From Psychromonas sp. CNPT3 (GTDB lineage Bacteria > Pseudomonadota > Gammaproteobacteria > Enterobacterales > Psychromonadaceae), in contig NC_020802.1 in the NCBI RefSeq assembly GCF_000153405.2, forward strand, positions 2,437,883 to 2,501,882: DNA of 64,000 nucleotides, written 5' to 3'. The notes below the pieces were generated by a model that had not been told where the DNA came from, ran no database searches, and saw only the letters and a program-made list of their open reading frames with translations. This document shows, piece after piece, positions 29,449-47,386 of this stretch. The translations under genes and the position numbers were made by a program. The first letter of the stretch is position 1, and every line of letters starts with the position of its first letter.

Positions 29449-30108
29449 TTATTGCCCATACATATTCATTCCATTATTCAACAGCTTAACTAATTCGTCA
29501 GTATGGATCAAGGCGCACATTTTATCTTTTACCATACCGGCGAGCCAAGGACGATCACCTTTTCTAGCGCGCCATTTTATTTCTGATTGATTTAATGTTT
29601 GTGTTCCTAATAAGTTCTCACAAGAAAGGCCCCATTCACTATTACCTAATAAGATATAATGACTGTAGTTCAGAGTGTTAGCACTCTCACCCGTATTCAT
29701 CCACTGCGCGGTATCCACGATATTACATAATTTTTCATGATGTGTCATTACCCCGGAAAACCAAGCAGGTTTACCAAACAATTTGTTCATTGAATCACTC
29801 AATGCATGGATACCCCCTAAATCAGTTAAGGGAACTGCAAAATTTAATCCAGAAAGCGAAAAAAACAAAACTTGAAATTCAGGCTCTAATTGTAAATTCT
29901 GCCATTCATCCTCTTGCGGAGGCTCTTCCTCTGTTTGCAGTTGCATTTTTTCTTGCTCTGCAAAAGATAACTCTCGGCTAAAAATAGGCGCGCTAAGCGT
30001 TTCATCTCTTTCTAAAACGGCCTCTTTTGTCAGTTGTGTTTCGCTGTTTGACTCGGATAACATCGCATTAAAATAAGCATGCATTGCTTCATCATTATGG
30101 TTTTTCAT
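29449..30108 (-). CDS. parP: CheW-like domain protein ParP
   Basis: In Vibrio, ParP links the polar ParC ATPase to CheA and keeps chemotaxis arrays at the pole. This 219-residue protein has an acidic N-terminal half of about 75 residues and a C-terminal CheW-like domain (FQVLFFSLSGLNFAVPLTDLGGIHAL, later HYILLGNSEWGLSCENLLG). It directly follows the parC ATPase gene and precedes cheW, the ParC-ParP-CheW order. It is short compared with Vibrio ParP, whose linker is longer. Name assigned from domain and order. Confidence 0.82.
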   Translation of the reverse strand: MKNHNDEAMHAYFNAMLSESNSETQLTKEAVLERDETLSAPIFSRELSFAEQEKMQLQTEEEPPQEDEWQNLQLEPEFQVLFFSLSGLNFAVPLTDLGGIHALSDSMNKLFGKPAWFSGVMTHHEKLCNIVDTAQWMNTGESANTLNYSHYILLGNSEWGLSCENLLGTQTLNQSEIKWRARKGDRPWLAGMVKDKMCALIHTDELVKLLNNGMNMYGQ

Positions 30109-30882
30109 TTAATAAGACTCTGCTTGTAACAAATAATTAAGTAAAGTTTCATACGCAAAAACACCTCTACAGCGTTTTGCATACATAGAAATAGGCAGAT
30201 GTTGTAAGCTCGCATCTCTAAACTTAGTATCAACCGGGATCACGCCATTCCAGACTTGTTCCTGATAACGTTCCTTTATAAGCGCTAATGTATTAAGTGA
30301 TGCACGCGTCCGTTTGTCATACATTGTAGGTATAATACAATATTTAAAACTCACTCCCGCCGATTTTTTCATCACACCTAAGGTGCTGATCATTCGATCT
30401 AACCCTTTTGATGCTAAAAATTCAGTTTGCACGGGGATCAATATTTTTTCACAAGCTGCCAATGCATTAACCATCATCACGCCGAGTACAGGCGGACAAT
30501 CAATCAGCACAAAATCATAATCTTCTTCCACAAAGGCTAATTGTTTTTTCAAAAACAATCCCATGCCCTCTTTTTCGCCTAACACGCGATCCAATGTAGC
30601 TAAAGCCATGGAGGCAGGGATCAACGAAATATTAGCAATTTCAGTGGGCAGAATAACCTGATCTATTTCTCCTTTAACCTCTGCAGGCTCTTCAAAAAGA
30701 TCGTATAAGCTGACCGGTAACTGGTCTGGATCATATTGTAAATAACTGGTTAAAGACGCATGAGGATCAGTATCAATGACTAACACACGAAAACCTCGCT
30801 CAGCTAACAATCCTGCAAGCGATATAACGGTGGTTGTTTTCCCCACGCCTCCTTTTTGATTTGCAATTGTCCAAATTCGCAA
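30109..30882 (-). CDS. parC: ParA-family ATPase ParC, chemotaxis array positioning
   Basis: MinD/ParA-type ATPase that directs chemotaxis arrays to the cell pole and their inheritance in vibrios. The deviant Walker A KGGVGKTTT (residues 10-18) and DTDPHASLT are intact, and LIDCPPVLGVMMVNAL is the Walker B region. The 257-residue length is normal. It lies one base after motD and next to parP. A Pseudomonas homologue at the same place is annotated as Soj-like. It is not the chromosome-segregation ParA, as no parB is adjacent. Confidence 0.88.
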   Translation of the reverse strand: MRIWTIANQKGGVGKTTTVISLAGLLAERGFRVLVIDTDPHASLTSYLQYDPDQLPVSLYDLFEEPAEVKGEIDQVILPTEIANISLIPASMALATLDRVLGEKEGMGLFLKKQLAFVEEDYDFVLIDCPPVLGVMMVNALAACEKILIPVQTEFLASKGLDRMISTLGVMKKSAGVSFKYCIIPTMYDKRTRASLNTLALIKERYQEQVWNGVIPVDTKFRDASLQHLPISMYAKRCRGVFAYETLLNYLLQAESY

Positions 30883-30883
30883 T

Positions 30884-31807
30884 CTAGTCCATCCTTGTGG
30901 TTATAATTAAACGCTCATTAGGCAAATATATTTCTTGTATATTTTCACTGTCTTTTACTTTCGCTTTGATCGGTTCTTTTTTTTCAACTTTAGCTTTAAT
31001 GATAGCAACCGGCTCAACTAACGCATATTTAGAAATAGCGATAACCACTCTTCGGCTTCCTAATTTATCTATTTTACCTTGTGCATCTTTGGCTAAGGTA
31101 TAACGACCATACGCTTCAACTACCATACGCCGTCCATCAATACCGTGACTATTTAAAGCATGTAGCACGCTAAAGGCCCGAGCACCTGATAGTTCCCAAT
31201 TAGATTGGTATATTTCATCTGCAATCAAATTATTATCGGTATAACCACGAATTCGTAATAAATTATTAATGGGTTTTAATGCTTCTGAAATTTTATTTAA
31301 ACGCTTTTTAGCAGCAATCAATAACGTATGACTACCACCTGCAAACAATAAATCCCCCCCCATTTCAATAGTCAACCAGTCGCCATCAAGATCCAACTTT
31401 AAAACTTCTTCGTCTATTTCTGAAGATAACAGCACCTCTAACTCAGTTTTTAATTGTTTGAGTTCCCAGCCAGCTTTTAAGGTATCCACATCCGACAGTT
31501 CATCATTCGCTTGATTTATCATACCTTCTGAGCGAATTGCAGGGCCACTGTCTTCTATAATACTGTTACTATTTTCTGTTAAAATCCCTTCTCGTTCAGA
31601 ACTAAAAACCGATTGATTTAATAATTTACTGGCCTTTTGGATCTTAACAATCACCTCTTTATATTGTTCTTCCTGATTAATCGAAACCGCATACAGTAAA
31701 ACAAAAACGGCAAACATTAAGGTCATAAAATCAGCAAAAGAAACCGTCCAACGGTGTAAATCATTACCCGAATGCATTTTAAGGCGCGTACGAGGCCGAA
31801 CTCGCAT
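30884..31807 (-). CDS. motD: Flagellar motor stator protein MotD (MotB family)
   Basis: Peptidoglycan-anchored stator subunit. The single membrane segment contains the ion-carrying Asp26 in TVSFADFMTLMFAVFVLLY. The C-terminal OmpA-like domain binds peptidoglycan (LRIRGYTDNNL, WELSGARAFSVLHAL). A basic tail follows the OmpA domain. 307 residues. Its start shares a base with the motC stop. Named by synteny with the Pseudomonas motCD pair next to cheB. Proton versus sodium use cannot be read from the sequence. Confidence 0.9.
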   Translation of the reverse strand: MRVRPRTRLKMHSGNDLHRWTVSFADFMTLMFAVFVLLYAVSINQEEQYKEVIVKIQKASKLLNQSVFSSEREGILTENSNSIIEDSGPAIRSEGMINQANDELSDVDTLKAGWELKQLKTELEVLLSSEIDEEVLKLDLDGDWLTIEMGGDLLFAGGSHTLLIAAKKRLNKISEALKPINNLLRIRGYTDNNLIADEIYQSNWELSGARAFSVLHALNSHGIDGRRMVVEAYGRYTLAKDAQGKIDKLGSRRVVIAISKYALVEPVAIIKAKVEKKEPIKAKVKDSENIQEIYLPNERLIITTRMD

Positions 31808-32559
31808 TAATAAGAGCCTCTATCAAGGTAACCACTCAAACGGCGCTCTAATAATAAACTATTTTCACCATGTGCTATTGCCAGTAAACCGATTAACGTC
31901 ATCTCTTTATAAAGTGCAATATACTGATAATACAATCTAATTTTATTAGCAATCGGCAGGAAAATAAAATTTGCAAAACCAACACCGTAAATAGTGGCAA
32001 CAAATGCAACGGCAATACCCGCCCCTAACTTATCCGGCTCACTTAAATAACCCATCGCCTGAATCAGGCCCATTACCGCACCAATAATACCAATCGTAGG
32101 GCTGTAACCTCCCATCGATTCATAGATTTGAGCACTGCGCTCATAATGTTCACTTTCAAGATCAATATCTTGCTGTAATATTTCTTGTAAAACCAAAGGC
32201 TCACAACCATCAACAAGCATTGATAATGCTTTGCTTGTAAATTCATCTAATGACTCATTAGCATTGGGCTCTAAACTTAATAATCCCAACTTCCGTGATT
32301 TATCAGACCATTTTTGAATCAACAAAGATTGCTTGTGTAGAGGTAAAGGAGGGGAGAAAAAAACCTGAGGTAATAAACGTAGTGCATGGGTCAGTTGTTT
32401 TGCAGAAGACTGCACTAATACCGCACCACATGTACCACCAAAAACAATTAAAAACGCGGGCAGATCAAATAACCCGCTAATTGACACACCATGGTAAATT
32501 TGAGAAAACAGCAAACTTGCAATAATGACAAAAAAACCAAAGAGCCCCAGTTTATTCAT
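31807..32559 (-). CDS. motC: Flagellar motor stator protein MotC (MotA family)
   Basis: Four-segment membrane stator subunit that pairs with MotD. Helices are visible near residues 3-20 and 28-50. A long cytoplasmic loop and the conserved [21 protein letters not shown] followed by [20 protein letters not shown] complete it. 250 residues, family length. It overlaps the end of cheB by eight bases. Synteny with Pseudomonas supports the name. Confidence 0.9.
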
Positions 32560-33691
32560 GCTTCAACTCTATTTTGATACATTTTGCCACCTGATCAAGT
32601 GGAATAGACTCTGTTGCGATACCCGCTTTATATACTGCTTGAGGCATACCATATACGACGCAACTTGCTTCATCTTGGGCCCAAATAACAGATCCCTTGT
32701 CTTTTAACATGCGCGCGCCATCACGTCCATCTGCGCCCATACCTGTTAAAACAACAGCCAATACTTTATTTGTATATATTTTTGATAATGATGCAAACGT
32801 GATATCGACACTTGGTTTGTAATTTAACTTTTCATTACCATCAAGGATACGAATTCGCGCATTACCATTGCGCCCTTCTATTAAAAGTTGTTTACCACCT
32901 GGCGCTAAATAAGCACAACCAGCTTGTAAGACATCTCCATCACTTGCTTCTTTTACGTTTATTTTACAAATGCCATTTAATCTATCCGCAAATGCTTTGG
33001 TGAACGTACCCGGCATATGTTGAATAAGAAGAATCGGCAATTTAAAGTTAGCCGGTAATTCCGCAAGCACTTTTTGCAACGCAACTGGTCCACCTGTTGA
33101 TGTACCTATCGCTAAAATACTGTACGTTTTACCTGATGCTTTAAACGCTCTAGAGATAGTCGATTTTACCACACTAGCAACAGGCGCAGAGGGGCGACTT
33201 GTCGCCAGAGGTGTTCGCACTAGCGGTGTAGATCGTAATGCACTACGAGCGGGTGTAGCCGTCACAATGGGTTTCGTAACCACTCGTGCAACGCGGCGTC
33301 TTGATATAGCTAAAATACGTTGTTGTAATAAAGAAATCGCTTCTTCTTTATCTCGTGCAATATCTTCAAACTTTTTTGGTAAAAAATCTGCAGCCCCAGC
33401 TTCTAACGCATCGAGCGTCGCGCTGGCACCTTGATGCGTTAAAGAAGAAAACATTAAAATAGGTACGGGGTGACTTGCCATTATTTTTTTAACGGCGGTA
33501 ATACCATCCATAACTGGCATTTCAATATCCATCGTCACAACATCAGGCTTATATTTTATCACCATATCGATGGCTTCTTGCCCATTATTTGCGGTAGCAA
33601 TAACTTCTAATGCAGGTGAATTATTAATTATTTCGCTAACACGACGACGAAAAAAACTAGAATCATCAACAACTAATACTTTTACTGCCAT
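32552..33691 (-). CDS. cheB: Chemotaxis response regulator methylesterase CheB
   Basis: Demethylates and deamidates chemoreceptors when phosphorylated by CheA. The receiver domain has the phospho-acceptor Asp55 (VVTMDIEMP). A linker rich in Arg, Thr, Pro and Ala leads to the catalytic domain with GTSTGG, LIQHMPG and VLTGMGADG carrying the Ser-His-Asp triad. 379 residues. It is separated from cheA by 110 bases that contain a strong RNA hairpin. No cheR is in the window. Confidence 0.97.
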
Positions 33692-33801: not shown

Positions 33802-35946
33802 CTATGCGTAATGTTTTAATAAACTTGGCAGATCTAATATAAGTGCAATACCACCATCACTGGTAATAGTTGCGCCGGCCATTCCTGGCGTGCCAGAAAG
33901 TAATTGATCTAATGCTTTGATCACCACTTCTTCTTGACCGAGCAATGCATCAACAACAAATGCGACTTGTTGTACGCCTAATTGCACAATAACGACATGC
34001 CCAACACCTTTACTTTTAGTCACAGGGGCCAAATGAGGTGCAAGCCAATCGCTTAGGTAAAAGAGTGGGATAGCTTGGTCTCGGATAACAATACTGAGTT
34101 GCCCATTAACCATGTTTGTTTTTTCTAAATCCAGATGGAATATTTCATTCACATTGGTCAGTGGTAACGCGAAAGTCTGCTCCGACACCACGATCATTAA
34201 TGTTGGTAATATGGCTAATGTTAAAGGTACTTTTATCTCTAAACGCGTTCCTTTTCCCATCTTAGAATCAATAGAAATCGTTCCGTTTAATTTAGTAATA
34301 CCTGTTTTAACAACATCCATACCTACGCCACGACCTGATATGTCTGATATTTCAACTTTAGTCGAAAATCCTGGCGCAAATATTAAGGAGAAGGCATCTC
34401 TATCTGACATTCTATCGGCGCCATCTTGATCCAATATACCCTTATTTATCGCAATACTTTTGAGGAGTTCAGCATCCATTCCTGCGCCATCATCTTCAAT
34501 GACAAGTAAAATATGATCGCCTTCTTGTGACGCTGAGAGTAAAACATGGCCTTCTTTATCTTTACCGGCTTTCACTCGAACGTCCGGCATTTCAATACCA
34601 TGATCTACCGCATTTCTGATTAAATGCACTAATGGATCAGCAAGAGCTTCCACTAGGTTTTTATCTAAATCTGTTTCTTCACCGACCAACTCTAAACGAA
34701 TATTCTTGCCCAATGTGCGCGCAATATCACGCACTACACGCGGGAACTTACCAAAGACTTTCTTGATAGGCTGCATACGTGTTTTCATTACCGAGCCTTG
34801 TAAATCCCCAGTAACAATATCTAAGTTAGCAACAGCACGAGAAATTTCTTCGTTGTCAGAGGTTGTCTCTAAACTCACTAAGCGATTACGTACCAATACT
34901 AACTCACCGACCATGTTCATGATTTCATCAAGGATCGCAGTATCAACACGTACTGTCGGTTCCGCTTTAGCAACGGCGGTCTTTTTAGCTTTCGCTGGAG
35001 GCGCTTTAGCTGGCGCGGGTTTAGGCGTTGCTTTAGGCGCTTCTTTAACAACAACTGGCTCTTTCTTTTGCTCTACAGGGGCAGCGACAGGGGCAGCGAC
35101 AGGCGCGGTTGTATTTTGAGCGCTTTTACCTGCACCGTGTAATTCATCTAATAAAGATTCAAACTCATCATCAGAAATATCATCAGTGCTGAAGGTCAAT
35201 GGTGCTGGCGCTGGTTTTGCTATGCTATGCGATCCACTACCATGGAGTTCATCAAGCATTGACTCAAATTCGTCATCAGATATATCATTACTATTTGATG
35301 GCGCAACAGGCGTTGTTACCGCATTTTGCAATGATTTCCCTACACCGTGCAATTCATCAAGTAATGATTCAAATTCATCTTCTCCAATTTCTGCATTTTC
35401 AGGCTTCGCTTCCGCAGCTTCAATGCTAGAGCCAGATTCGGCGTGTAATTCATTTAATAATGCATCAAAGTCATTTTCAGTAATATCATCAATACTACCC
35501 TGAGTGTCTACAGACTCCGTCGCGGTGGCTTCAGGTTCAGCACTCTCATCTTCAGTGGCAGGTCTACTTAAGCGGTGTAACTGTTGCACTAATTCTGGAG
35601 GCGCTGCATTAGCAACATCACCGGTTTGCACTGCGTCAAATTGCTCATTGATAACATCTAAGGCCGCTAAGATGGTGTCCATTAAAGACGAGTTCACCTC
35701 GCGATGTTTTTGACGTAAGCAGTCAAAAACATTTTCAGCCCCATGGCATGTTTCGACTAATTCGGTGAGCGATAAGAAACCAGCGCCCCCTTTTACTGTG
35801 TGGAATCCACGGAAAATAGCATTTAATAATTCAGTATCATTGGGGTTGTTTTCTAGTTCAACTAATTGCTCAGATAACAGTTCTAAAATTTCTCCAGCTT
35901 CAACTAAAAAGTCCTGGAGGATCTCTTCATCTACTTCAAATGTCAT
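33802..35946 (-). CDS. cheA: Chemotaxis histidine kinase CheA
   Basis: Central chemotaxis kinase. The P1 domain carries His49 in GFHTVKGGAGFL. A P3 dimerisation helix starts near residue 332 (RVDTAILDEIMNMVGELVLVR), followed by the P4 ATP domain (LVHLIRNAVDHGIE, GDGAGMD-type and GRGVGMDVV motifs) and the P5 CheW-like domain. The 200-residue linker has no recognisable CheY-binding P2. Instead it holds four copies, 34-35 residues apart, of a D-E-F-E-S-L-L-D-E-L-H-G peptide (about 152-168, 186-201, 221-236, 256-271), then a Pro/Ala/Lys-rich stretch. 714 residues. Confidence 0.96.
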   Translation of the reverse strand: MTFEVDEEILQDFLVEAGEILELLSEQLVELENNPNDTELLNAIFRGFHTVKGGAGFLSLTELVETCHGAENVFDCLRQKHREVNSSLMDTILAALDVINEQFDAVQTGDVANAAPPELVQQLHRLSRPATEDESAEPEATATESVDTQGSIDDITENDFDALLNELHAESGSSIEAAEAKPENAEIGEDEFESLLDELHGVGKSLQNAVTTPVAPSNSNDISDDEFESMLDELHGSGSHSIAKPAPAPLTFSTDDISDDEFESLLDELHGAGKSAQNTTAPVAAPVAAPVEQKKEPVVVKEAPKATPKPAPAKAPPAKAKKTAVAKAEPTVRVDTAILDEIMNMVGELVLVRNRLVSLETTSDNEEISRAVANLDIVTGDLQGSVMKTRMQPIKKVFGKFPRVVRDIARTLGKNIRLELVGEETDLDKNLVEALADPLVHLIRNAVDHGIEMPDVRVKAGKDKEGHVLLSASQEGDHILLVIEDDGAGMDAELLKSIAINKGILDQDGADRMSDRDAFSLIFAPGFSTKVEISDISGRGVGMDVVKTGITKLNGTISIDSKMGKGTRLEIKVPLTLAILPTLMIVVSEQTFALPLTNVNEIFHLDLEKTNMVNGQLSIVIRDQAIPLFYLSDWLAPHLAPVTKSKGVGHVVIVQLGVQQVAFVVDALLGQEEVVIKALDQLLSGTPGMAGATITSDGGIALILDLPSLLKHYA
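35134..35493 (-). repeat. Four-copy coding repeat in the CheA linker
   Basis: About 105-base period. Encoded motifs are ENDFDALLNELHA, EDEFESLLDELHG, DDEFESMLDELHG and DDEFESLLDELHG, with the first copy most diverged. Spacers differ in sequence. Confidence 0.9.
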
Positions 35947-35957
35947 TTTCTGTTTCC

Positions 35958-36704
35958 TTAAAATCCTAAACTAGAAAGTAAATCATCAACGTCATCTTGC
36001 CCATTAACCACATCATCTCGGGTACTTGCATCAATAATTGGACCTTCCGCACTAATATCAGCCTGATCTGTTTCTTCTTTAACAACGATATTTTCAGGTG
36101 CAGAGCATACCGTTAATATCTGTACTAATTTTATCTCTATCTCTTGTACTAACGAGATCACGCGACTAATAATTTGTCCCGTTAAATCCTGAAAACCTTG
36201 AGCCATTAAAATATCCATCAAAGAAGCACGTAAACTAAGTGCACCTTGTTCTGAATCTTTCAGTAAATCTTCGACTTGATGACATAATTTTTTAAAATCA
36301 CCAAGTGCCAACTGACGCGTCATTAATGCTTGCCAATTCGGAGATATACTCTCTAAATCAGAGACTAATTTGTCCGCAATAGGAAGACAAACATCGACAG
36401 CATCCATGGTTGTATTCGCAGCTTCGCCGGTCATCTTAATCACATAATTTAAACGGTTTTCTGCTTCCGGAAGCTCTTTTCCAGCCAGATCCATCAAACG
36501 GGTATCATTTCTAAAATCCTGTAAAGCGTCGTGTAACTCACGCGTTAACTCACCAACTTTATCAAAAACAACATCCGTTTCAGCATGTATCACATTAGCC
36601 GATTCTACAATTCCATTTGCACTTGCAACATCTTCATTTTCTAAATAACGCACTAACTGTCTAGCTTGCTCTAAAGTAAGATGTGGCATCAATTCCTTTG
36701 CCAT
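35958..36704 (-). CDS. cheZ: CheY-P phosphatase CheZ
   Basis: Accelerates dephosphorylation of CheY-P. The long four-helix region includes the catalytic area LMDILMAQGFQDLTGQIISRV, with the conserved Gln in QDLTGQ. The C-terminal CheY-binding peptide is DDVDDLLSSLGF. At 248 residues it is longer than enteric CheZ (214) but normal for polar flagellates. It lies between cheY and cheA. Confidence 0.96.
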   Translation of the reverse strand: MAKELMPHLTLEQARQLVRYLENEDVASANGIVESANVIHAETDVVFDKVGELTRELHDALQDFRNDTRLMDLAGKELPEAENRLNYVIKMTGEAANTTMDAVDVCLPIADKLVSDLESISPNWQALMTRQLALGDFKKLCHQVEDLLKDSEQGALSLRASLMDILMAQGFQDLTGQIISRVISLVQEIEIKLVQILTVCSAPENIVVKEETDQADISAEGPIIDASTRDDVVNGQDDVDDLLSSLGF

Positions 36705-36708
36705 GTAT

Positions 36709-37092
36709 TTAACCTAATCGTTGGAAAACTTTATCGAGTTTTTCTTTTAATGTTCCCGCTGTAAAAGGTTTTACAATATAACCATTTACGCCTGCTTGAG
36801 CAGCTTCTATGATCTGTTCACGCTTAGCTTCTGCTGTTACCATTAAAACAGGAAGGTGTTTTAATTTAGGATCTTTGCGGATCTCTTTCAAAAGGTCAAT
36901 GCCTTGCATAATAGGCATGTTCCAATCCGTCACTACAAATTCAAAATCCCCATCTTTAAGCATCGGTAGAGCCGTATGGCCATCATCTGCTTCAAAGGTA
37001 TTCGTGAACCCTAGATCTCTTAATAAGTTTTTAATTATTCTTCTCATTGTTGAAAAATCATCAACAATCAGTACTTTCATATTTCGGTTCAA
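36709..37092 (-). CDS. cheY: Chemotaxis response regulator CheY
   Basis: Diffusible regulator that binds the FliM/FliN switch. A single receiver domain of 127 residues contains the acidic pair Asp11-Asp12, the phospho-acceptor Asp56 in VVTDWNMP and the conserved Lys in IVKPFTAG. An internal Met at residue 5 is an alternative start. It lies four bases before cheZ. Confidence 0.97.
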
Positions 37093-46327: not shown

Positions 46328-47386
46328 CTATTCATTTGCATTTGCATCTTCTTCTTCTGTCGCTTTCTTTAAATTACTTAATTTTAATTGGGTGTTTTGT
46401 ACTTCAGGGCGTTTAATACGATCTATTATCTTTAAAGCCAGATTGTCATTGGATTTTCCTAATTTAGCATGAAAAGAGGGCAATCCTTCAACACAAACAA
46501 GTAATTCTTCAGGGAGTTCAACGGGAATAATATCACCAACACTCCAATTTATCATATCACGTAAGGGTAACTGTTTTTCTAAGAGCTTTGCCGTTAGATA
46601 AACATCAACATCCATTATTTCATCTTCAAGCGCTTGGCTCCAACGTTGATCTGTATCTTCTTTATCACTTTGTACACCCGCATCGAGCAGTTCTCGAATT
46701 GGCTCTAACATTGAATACGGCATTGCAATATGGAAATCACCACCTCCACCATCTAATTCAATGTGAAAAGAATTAACAACAATAACTTCAGTTGGACTGA
46801 CGATATTTGCCATCGCCGGGTTTACTTCTGAGTCTAAATACTCAAAATCAGCTGTCATTACCGGTGCCCAAGCATCTTTATAATCTTCAAATATTATTTT
46901 CAATAGCATTTGAATAATACGACGCTCTGTCGGCGTAAACTCTCGCCCTTCAATTTTCGCATGGTAACGACCATCACCACCAAAAAAGTTTTCCACTAAA
47001 ATAAACACTAAGCGTGCTTCCATAGTGACTAACGCAGTTCCTTTAAGCGGGCGAAAACGTACCATATTTAAACTTGTTGGCACAAAAAGGGTGTGTACAT
47101 ATTCGCCAAACTTTAGCATTTGCACGCCATTTATCGACACTTCTGCCGTATGTCGTAGCATGTTAAATAAACTGATCCTTAAATGTCGTGCAAAACGCTC
47201 ATTAACCAACTCAAGTGTAGGCATGCGCCCACGAACAATACGATCTTGAGATGAAAAATCAAAATGAATATGTGAATCATCTTCAGCACCACCATCTTGA
47301 CCCTCGTCTCCAACTATCTCATCATCAACATCATCAACACCATGTAATAGCGCGTCAATTTCGTCTTGAGATAATAAATCTGCCAT
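46328..47386 (-). CDS. fliM: Flagellar motor switch protein FliM
   Basis: C-ring component that binds CheY-P. The N-terminal CheY-binding peptide DLLSQDEIDALLHG is intact, and an acidic linker follows. The middle CheC-like domain contains SLFNMLRHTAEVSINGVQ and the C-terminus has the SpoA fold (ELLVCVEGLPSFHAKLG). 352 residues. It lies between fliL and fliN. Confidence 0.97.
   Translation of the reverse strand: MADLLSQDEIDALLHGVDDVDDEIVGDEGQDGGAEDDSHIHFDFSSQDRIVRGRMPTLELVNERFARHLRISLFNMLRHTAEVSINGVQMLKFGEYVHTLFVPTSLNMVRFRPLKGTALVTMEARLVFILVENFFGGDGRYHAKIEGREFTPTERRIIQMLLKIIFEDYKDAWAPVMTADFEYLDSEVNPAMANIVSPTEVIVVNSFHIELDGGGGDFHIAMPYSMLEPIRELLDAGVQSDKEDTDQRWSQALEDEIMDVDVYLTAKLLEKQLPLRDMINWSVGDIIPVELPEELLVCVEGLPSFHAKLGKSNDNLALKIIDRIKRPEVQNTQLKLSNLKKATEEEDANANE

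Follow-up and report, generated by a model that had tools for sequence, protein, structure and literature searches.

Short FliM-like helices in place of the P2 domain in an F6-class CheA of Psychromonas: a predicted multi-copy dock for CheY

The window, a stretch of 64,000 nucleotides from the genome of Psychromonas sp. CNPT3, encodes on its minus strand a CheA of 714 aa (33802..35946). From the reading frame, Pfam and an AlphaFold2 model, this kinase is composed of Hpt (P1, residues 8-99), a repeat-bearing linker, H-kinase_dim (P3, 331-389), HATPase_c (P4, 437-576) and a CheW-like domain (P5, 583-712). On the same strand lie CheY (36709..37092), the proposed ligand of the repeats, assigned by its Response_reg domain and alignments; CheB (32552..33691; Pfam), a possible second ligand; a ParC-like ATPase (30109..30882; Pfam AAA_31 and cluster comparison); and ParP (29449..30108; Pfam and a ParP profile), a rival partner of 219 aa with a CheW-like C-terminal domain. 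The CheA domains Hpt, H-kinase_dim, HATPase_c and CheW and the order fliA-cheY-cheZ-cheA-cheB-parC-parP-cheW are those of the class named F6 (PMC7534058, PMC7184735), and the cluster has the gene order of Vibrio cholerae cluster II. A MotA/MotB-like stator pair is located between cheB and parC (30884-32559), as in the clusters of 25 of 80 relatives. The ParP of the window is short as compared to its relatives (219 aa vs about 220-490 aa), with most of the Pro/Glu-rich middle missing.

Between P1 and P3, at residues 155-271, the kinase carries an acidic helix of 15 residues in four copies (consensus [DE]I[ST]DDEFExLLDELHG), as a sequence-only reading of this DNA had proposed. Profile search and alignment place copy 1, ITENDFDALLNELHA, at residues 155-169 (35440..35484, minus strand, as for all four); copy 2, IGEDEFESLLDELHG, at 187-201 (35344..35388); copy 3, ISDDEFESMLDELHG, at 222-236 (35239..35283); and copy 4, ISDDEFESLLDELHG, at 257-271 (35134..35178). 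From start to start the copies are 32, 35 and 35 residues apart (96, 105 and 105 nt), which corrects the uniform 34-35 residues given in that reading. When the 3.05-Mb genome was searched in full with a profile of 20 motif sequences, nearly all taken from other species, the matches were exactly these four CheA sites (E = 5e-10 to 9e-8), with no other at E <= 10. This search rules out chance or artefact as the origin of the repeats.

The linker that holds them (residues 127-333; 34948..35568, minus strand) occupies the place of P2 and is disordered outside the repeats. A Pfam search of this CheA found no P2 or CheY-binding domain (PF07194, PF09078) between P1 and P3, while the identical library, run on the CheA of E. 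coli, recovered PF09078 at 8e-17. HMMER overlooks P2 even in other E. coli-type CheAs, and a survey reports the same for many CheAs (PMC10782961); for this reason the absence of P2 in motif-bearing CheAs rests also on alignment and fold prediction, and the fold test carries more weight. In the AlphaFold2 model (52 sequences), pLDDT is below 50 across most of residues 138-333, and four short helices (157-170, 189-199, 224-234 and 259-269; pLDDT about 70-77) coincide exactly with the repeats. The model contains no strands in residues 127-335, and thus no folded alpha/beta domain in the linker. Searched by fold, the model matches P3-P5 of CheA and the catalytic regions of other histidine kinases, and the matches listed include no P2 entry; PDB sequence searches with the linker and repeat profiles returned no relevant solved structure. 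The expectation that no recognisable P2 resides in this linker is therefore borne out by both profile and fold. The modelled picture, helices amid disorder, is typical of short linear binding motifs.

The repeats are retained among relatives. Across 51 of them, copies 2-4 have 80-83% identity to the window and P3-P5 has 75%, with 22% for the remaining linker, so that by sequence copies 2-4 are as conserved as the catalytic region. Copy 1 has an aligned counterpart in only 8 of the 51 and is an extra, degenerate copy. Within 339 aligned copies, conservation is near 100% at the F, the second core L, the D and the last L, 98% at E and at the first core L, 97% at H and 95% at G. The proposed check on the motif in other gammaproteobacterial CheAs gave 110 loci, from Psychromonas, Vibrio, Photobacterium, Shewanella, Aeromonas, Pseudoalteromonas, Alteromonas, Colwellia, Moritella, Pseudomonas and others; most carry three copies (82/110), with four in 19, two in 7 and five in 2. 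The nearest named relatives of the window CheA, also Psychromonas, are 73% identical to it.

The motif is confined both taxonomically and to one protein. It was found in 56 of 299 Pseudomonadota genomes, all 56 within the class or order of the window; there was none outside Gammaproteobacteria among the matches listed, and none in family f18 among the genomes listed. All 71 motif matches from 26 genomes fall inside CheA-length frames, and none was found outside CheA in 27 genomes. No protein in which the motif is naturally fused to a receiver domain turned up; one long CheA frame (G325), considered as a candidate fusion, proved to be an open upstream frame. A literature search for the motif as an exact string, with figure content outside its reach, gave no match. 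These distributions indicate that the repeats are a class-wide trait of gammaproteobacterial CheA and not a peculiarity of Psychromonas sp. CNPT3, which the sequence-only reading had not anticipated.

A class-wide sample contains a second group of CheAs, ~40% identical to the window CheA and alignable with E. coli CheA. Most members align end to end with the E. coli protein, including P2 residues 159-227, at 40-46% identity. As hhalign matches the E. coli-type linker profile to E. coli P2 no more than locally, over 28 columns (E = 0.014), the identity of P2 in this class rests mainly on the end-to-end alignment. None of the E. coli-type paralogues contains the motif and none of the motif-bearing CheAs contains a recognisable P2; the two never occur together in one CheA, and each takes the same position between P1 and P3. 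P2 (PF07194, PF09078) docks CheY and CheB near P1 of the same kinase, as is proposed for the repeats, which would use the same CheY face. The architectures differ: P2 is one folded domain, and the repeats are separate 15-residue helices, 2-5 per CheA, set in disordered sequence.

The repeats share their design, an acidic amphipathic helix with an E-[IVF]-[DE]-x-L-L core, with two known kinds of CheY-binding peptide in the same window: FliM residues 5-16, LSQDEIDALLHG (47339..47374, minus strand), and the last 14 residues of CheZ, GQDDVDDLLSSLGF (35961..36002, minus strand), both assigned by Pfam, the motif matrix and alignment. The matrix was scored across all window proteins (18,622 heptamers and 18,436 decamers). 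Of the heptamers outside CheA, the one that scores highest against the motif core is FliM DEIDALL; among the decamers, CheA copies included, FliM ranks 11th and CheZ DDVDDLLSSL 16th; over fifteen residues FliM is 8th, behind unrelated proteins. The CheA copies themselves take the top four places in the ten- and fifteen-residue rankings. From these ranks the FliM resemblance is real for the core but short. Accordingly, the close likeness to FliM that had been suggested holds over seven residues, and the LHG end is only loosely shared; the looser likeness to CheZ was confirmed at its decamer rank.

Comparison of the three peptides indicates where they diverge. The FliM N-terminal peptide (SQDEIDALLHG) shares with the repeat the acidic-E-[IF]-[DE]-x-L-L core, the short amphipathic helix and the HG end. 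It differs in being a single copy at the protein N-terminus, in having three fewer residues between LL and HG, and in belonging to an output element that favours CheY~P, not to a kinase. The CheZ C-terminal peptide (QDDVDDLLSSLGF) gives an ungapped ten-residue match, [VF][DE]xLLxxL, and is distinguished by its single C-terminal copy, its GF end and a V in place of the invariant F; its similarity to the repeat is weak in rank, 16th to 29th. Both peptides are nearly invariant, as L[ST]Q[DE]E[IV]DALL[HT]G in 25 relatives with a readable FliM start and as DDLL[SA]SLGF in 80 relatives for CheZ. In two clusters with a motif-bearing CheA (L203, L207), CheZ was not recognised between cheY and cheA.

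The CheY encoded beside these kinases presents a basic alpha4-beta5-alpha5 face of the Q94/V103/K117 type, a signature peculiar to the partners of this class of CheA. This face is nearly invariant, with K91, Y106, K109, K119 and K122 at 100% in 81 sequences. In 116 CheYs beside motif-bearing CheAs, Plesiomonas included, Q94 is found in 99%, V103 in 100% and K117 in 88%, and cheY lies beside cheA in every whole cluster examined. E. coli-type CheY descended from CheY-F6, and on its move to the P2-bearing CheA-F7 it acquired R92K, Q94N and V103A, which face P2, and K117E, a FliM-helix position (Ortega 2020, PMC7184735). Because CheA-F6 is without P2, the face of CheY-F6 must be shaped by something else, and presumably CheA-F6 touches that face by means other than P2. 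The repeats would fit as the element that shapes it, and the positive charge at K117 would suit an acidic peptide. The CheY signature could also be due in part to FliM and CheZ rather than to CheA.

Weighing these data, we consider it moderately probable that the CheA repeats form a multi-copy peptide dock for CheY, and perhaps for CheB, that replaces P2, with the binding itself predicted. In this model the identity of the ligand, the face by which it is held and the consequence for phosphotransfer are predicted. It would involve: replacement, in F6-class CheA, of a folded P2 by a flexible linker with several short helical docking peptides; binding of each copy to the alpha4-beta5-alpha5 face of CheY, as FliM-N and CheZ-C do; and retention of CheY, and perhaps of the CheB receiver, near phosphorylated P1. 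With several weak sites on each kinase and two kinases in the dimer, avidity would increase the local amount of CheY, and CheY~P would then depart to the competing FliM and CheZ peptides. A point against a dock for CheY is that the FliM and CheZ peptides prefer CheY~P, whereas a docking site for the kinase substrate would be expected to prefer CheY that is not phosphorylated. In its favour, CheY-eYFP and CheA-CFP overlap at the pole of P. aeruginosa (PMC12410967). This suggests, by analogy, array-bound CheY in Pseudomonas, a genus whose sampled P. akapageensis carries the motif. In that species the cluster (L102, 11268-14792) reads cheA-cheB-motAB-parC-parP-cheW; P. aeruginosa is stated to be without ParC/ParP-related genes (PMC12410967, 2025).

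The competing idea with the most in its favour, though unlikely in our estimate, is that the repeats are the LID or its core, with the main function of binding the CheW-like AIF domain of ParP and so holding CheA in polar arrays. The LID, reportedly defined by Ringgaard in 2014, falls somewhere within this linker, in CheAs of the same class. It is reported to be the region of Vibrio CheA before P3 that ParP binding requires, and to be restricted to CheAs accompanied by ParC/ParP (PMC5706961, PMC7534058). Consistent with a ParP role, ParP is encoded in the window and is present in most motif-bearing genomes, as judged with a profile of 24 sequences run on 68 genomes, with negatives rerun at E <= 0.1. 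Against it, neither ParP nor ParC is found in the complete Plesiomonas-like genome G033 or the draft G057, an uncultured Plesiomonas (loci L064 and L198 in the two genomes), the ParP recheck at E <= 0.1 included. The Plesiomonas CheA nonetheless has three good copies, ISDDEFERLLDALHGEG, ISDDEFERLLDDLHGVG and ISDDEFERLLDDLHGAG, and its gene has cheB and cheW as neighbours. Further clusters without ParC or ParP retain three copies (L255, genome G325), two (L201, G066) or one (L203, G077), the last two lineages with weaker, degenerate copies; a diverged ParP could be missed in some such lineages, hardly in Plesiomonas. The repeats thus occur also without ParC/ParP, unlike the LID as described, and they look like CheY ligands. 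As the motif likewise persists in two clusters from which cheB is missing (L188, L194), both ParP and CheB are dispensable for keeping it, and Plesiomonas shows that ParP cannot be the only partner. Binding to ParP, raised from the outset as the competing idea, is therefore weakened as a sole explanation, although ParP may bind the motif in genomes that have it.

One family, f35 (G068/G252), was considered as a clean ParP loss and was left out, since in most members a diverged CheW-like ORF comes after a ParC-like gene. In L252-L254 of this family that ORF is long and may be a ParP beyond the reach of the profile, and cheB is absent from the cluster.

A shared role, in which the copies are a general docking array for CheY, CheB and ParP that these partners divide or compete for, is likewise improbable. 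The range of copy number from 1 to 5, the occasional degeneration of end copies and the coincidence of motif and ParP in most genomes would be in keeping with such an array. All copies, however, share one consensus, the logo carries no sign of two specificities, and the copy number in Plesiomonas (three) is not clearly lower.

It is very doubtful that the repeats bind within CheA (e.g. to P1 or P4) or between dimers and thereby control kinase activity or the packing of arrays without a response regulator taking part. Helices of disordered linkers can be autoregulatory, and the acidic amphipathic repeats are partly matched by the Pfam SHOCT helix. In the AlphaFold2 model, however, the helices are not packed with confidence against any other domain of CheA (pTM 0.45), the SHOCT model is matched only in part, and several identical copies at variable spacing better fit a soluble ligand. 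The SHOCT likeness (PF09851) consists of an I-T-x-E-E-F helix start and above-threshold summed scores in the linkers of L102 and L185; about half of the model matches, the LHG end and the spacing are absent from SHOCT, and the likeness is probably convergent. Partial SHOCT matches lie on the repeats in the linkers of A3 and L185, and the scores exceed the curated cut-off in L102 and L185, so that automatic annotation may mislabel the repeats. That the repeats are unconstrained, functionless low-complexity linker, as the Ala/Pro-rich and unalignable remainder might suggest, is already contradicted by their conservation (80-83%, vs 75% for P3-P5 and 22% for the surrounding linker) and can be set aside with near certainty.

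P2 is not detectable in more than half of CheAs (PMC10782961), and a multi-peptide dock would be a concrete, testable answer to how CheY is recruited in one widespread P2-less class. With chances that we place near even, the gammaproteobacterial F6 CheAs (those of Vibrio, Shewanella, Aeromonas and Pseudomonas included) may recruit CheY by mimics of the motor peptide, and the CheY of E. coli, which is of that lineage, may later have been re-fitted to P2. If so, kinase, phosphatase and motor would compete for one CheY face using related sequences. The dock reading also bears on how E. coli CheY changed its P2-facing residues and on the function of the Vibrio LID region. In two Vibrionaceae CheAs (L061, L048), a similar segment, GKGP[ST].EEL, directly follows the last (third) repeat and is a candidate part of the LID.
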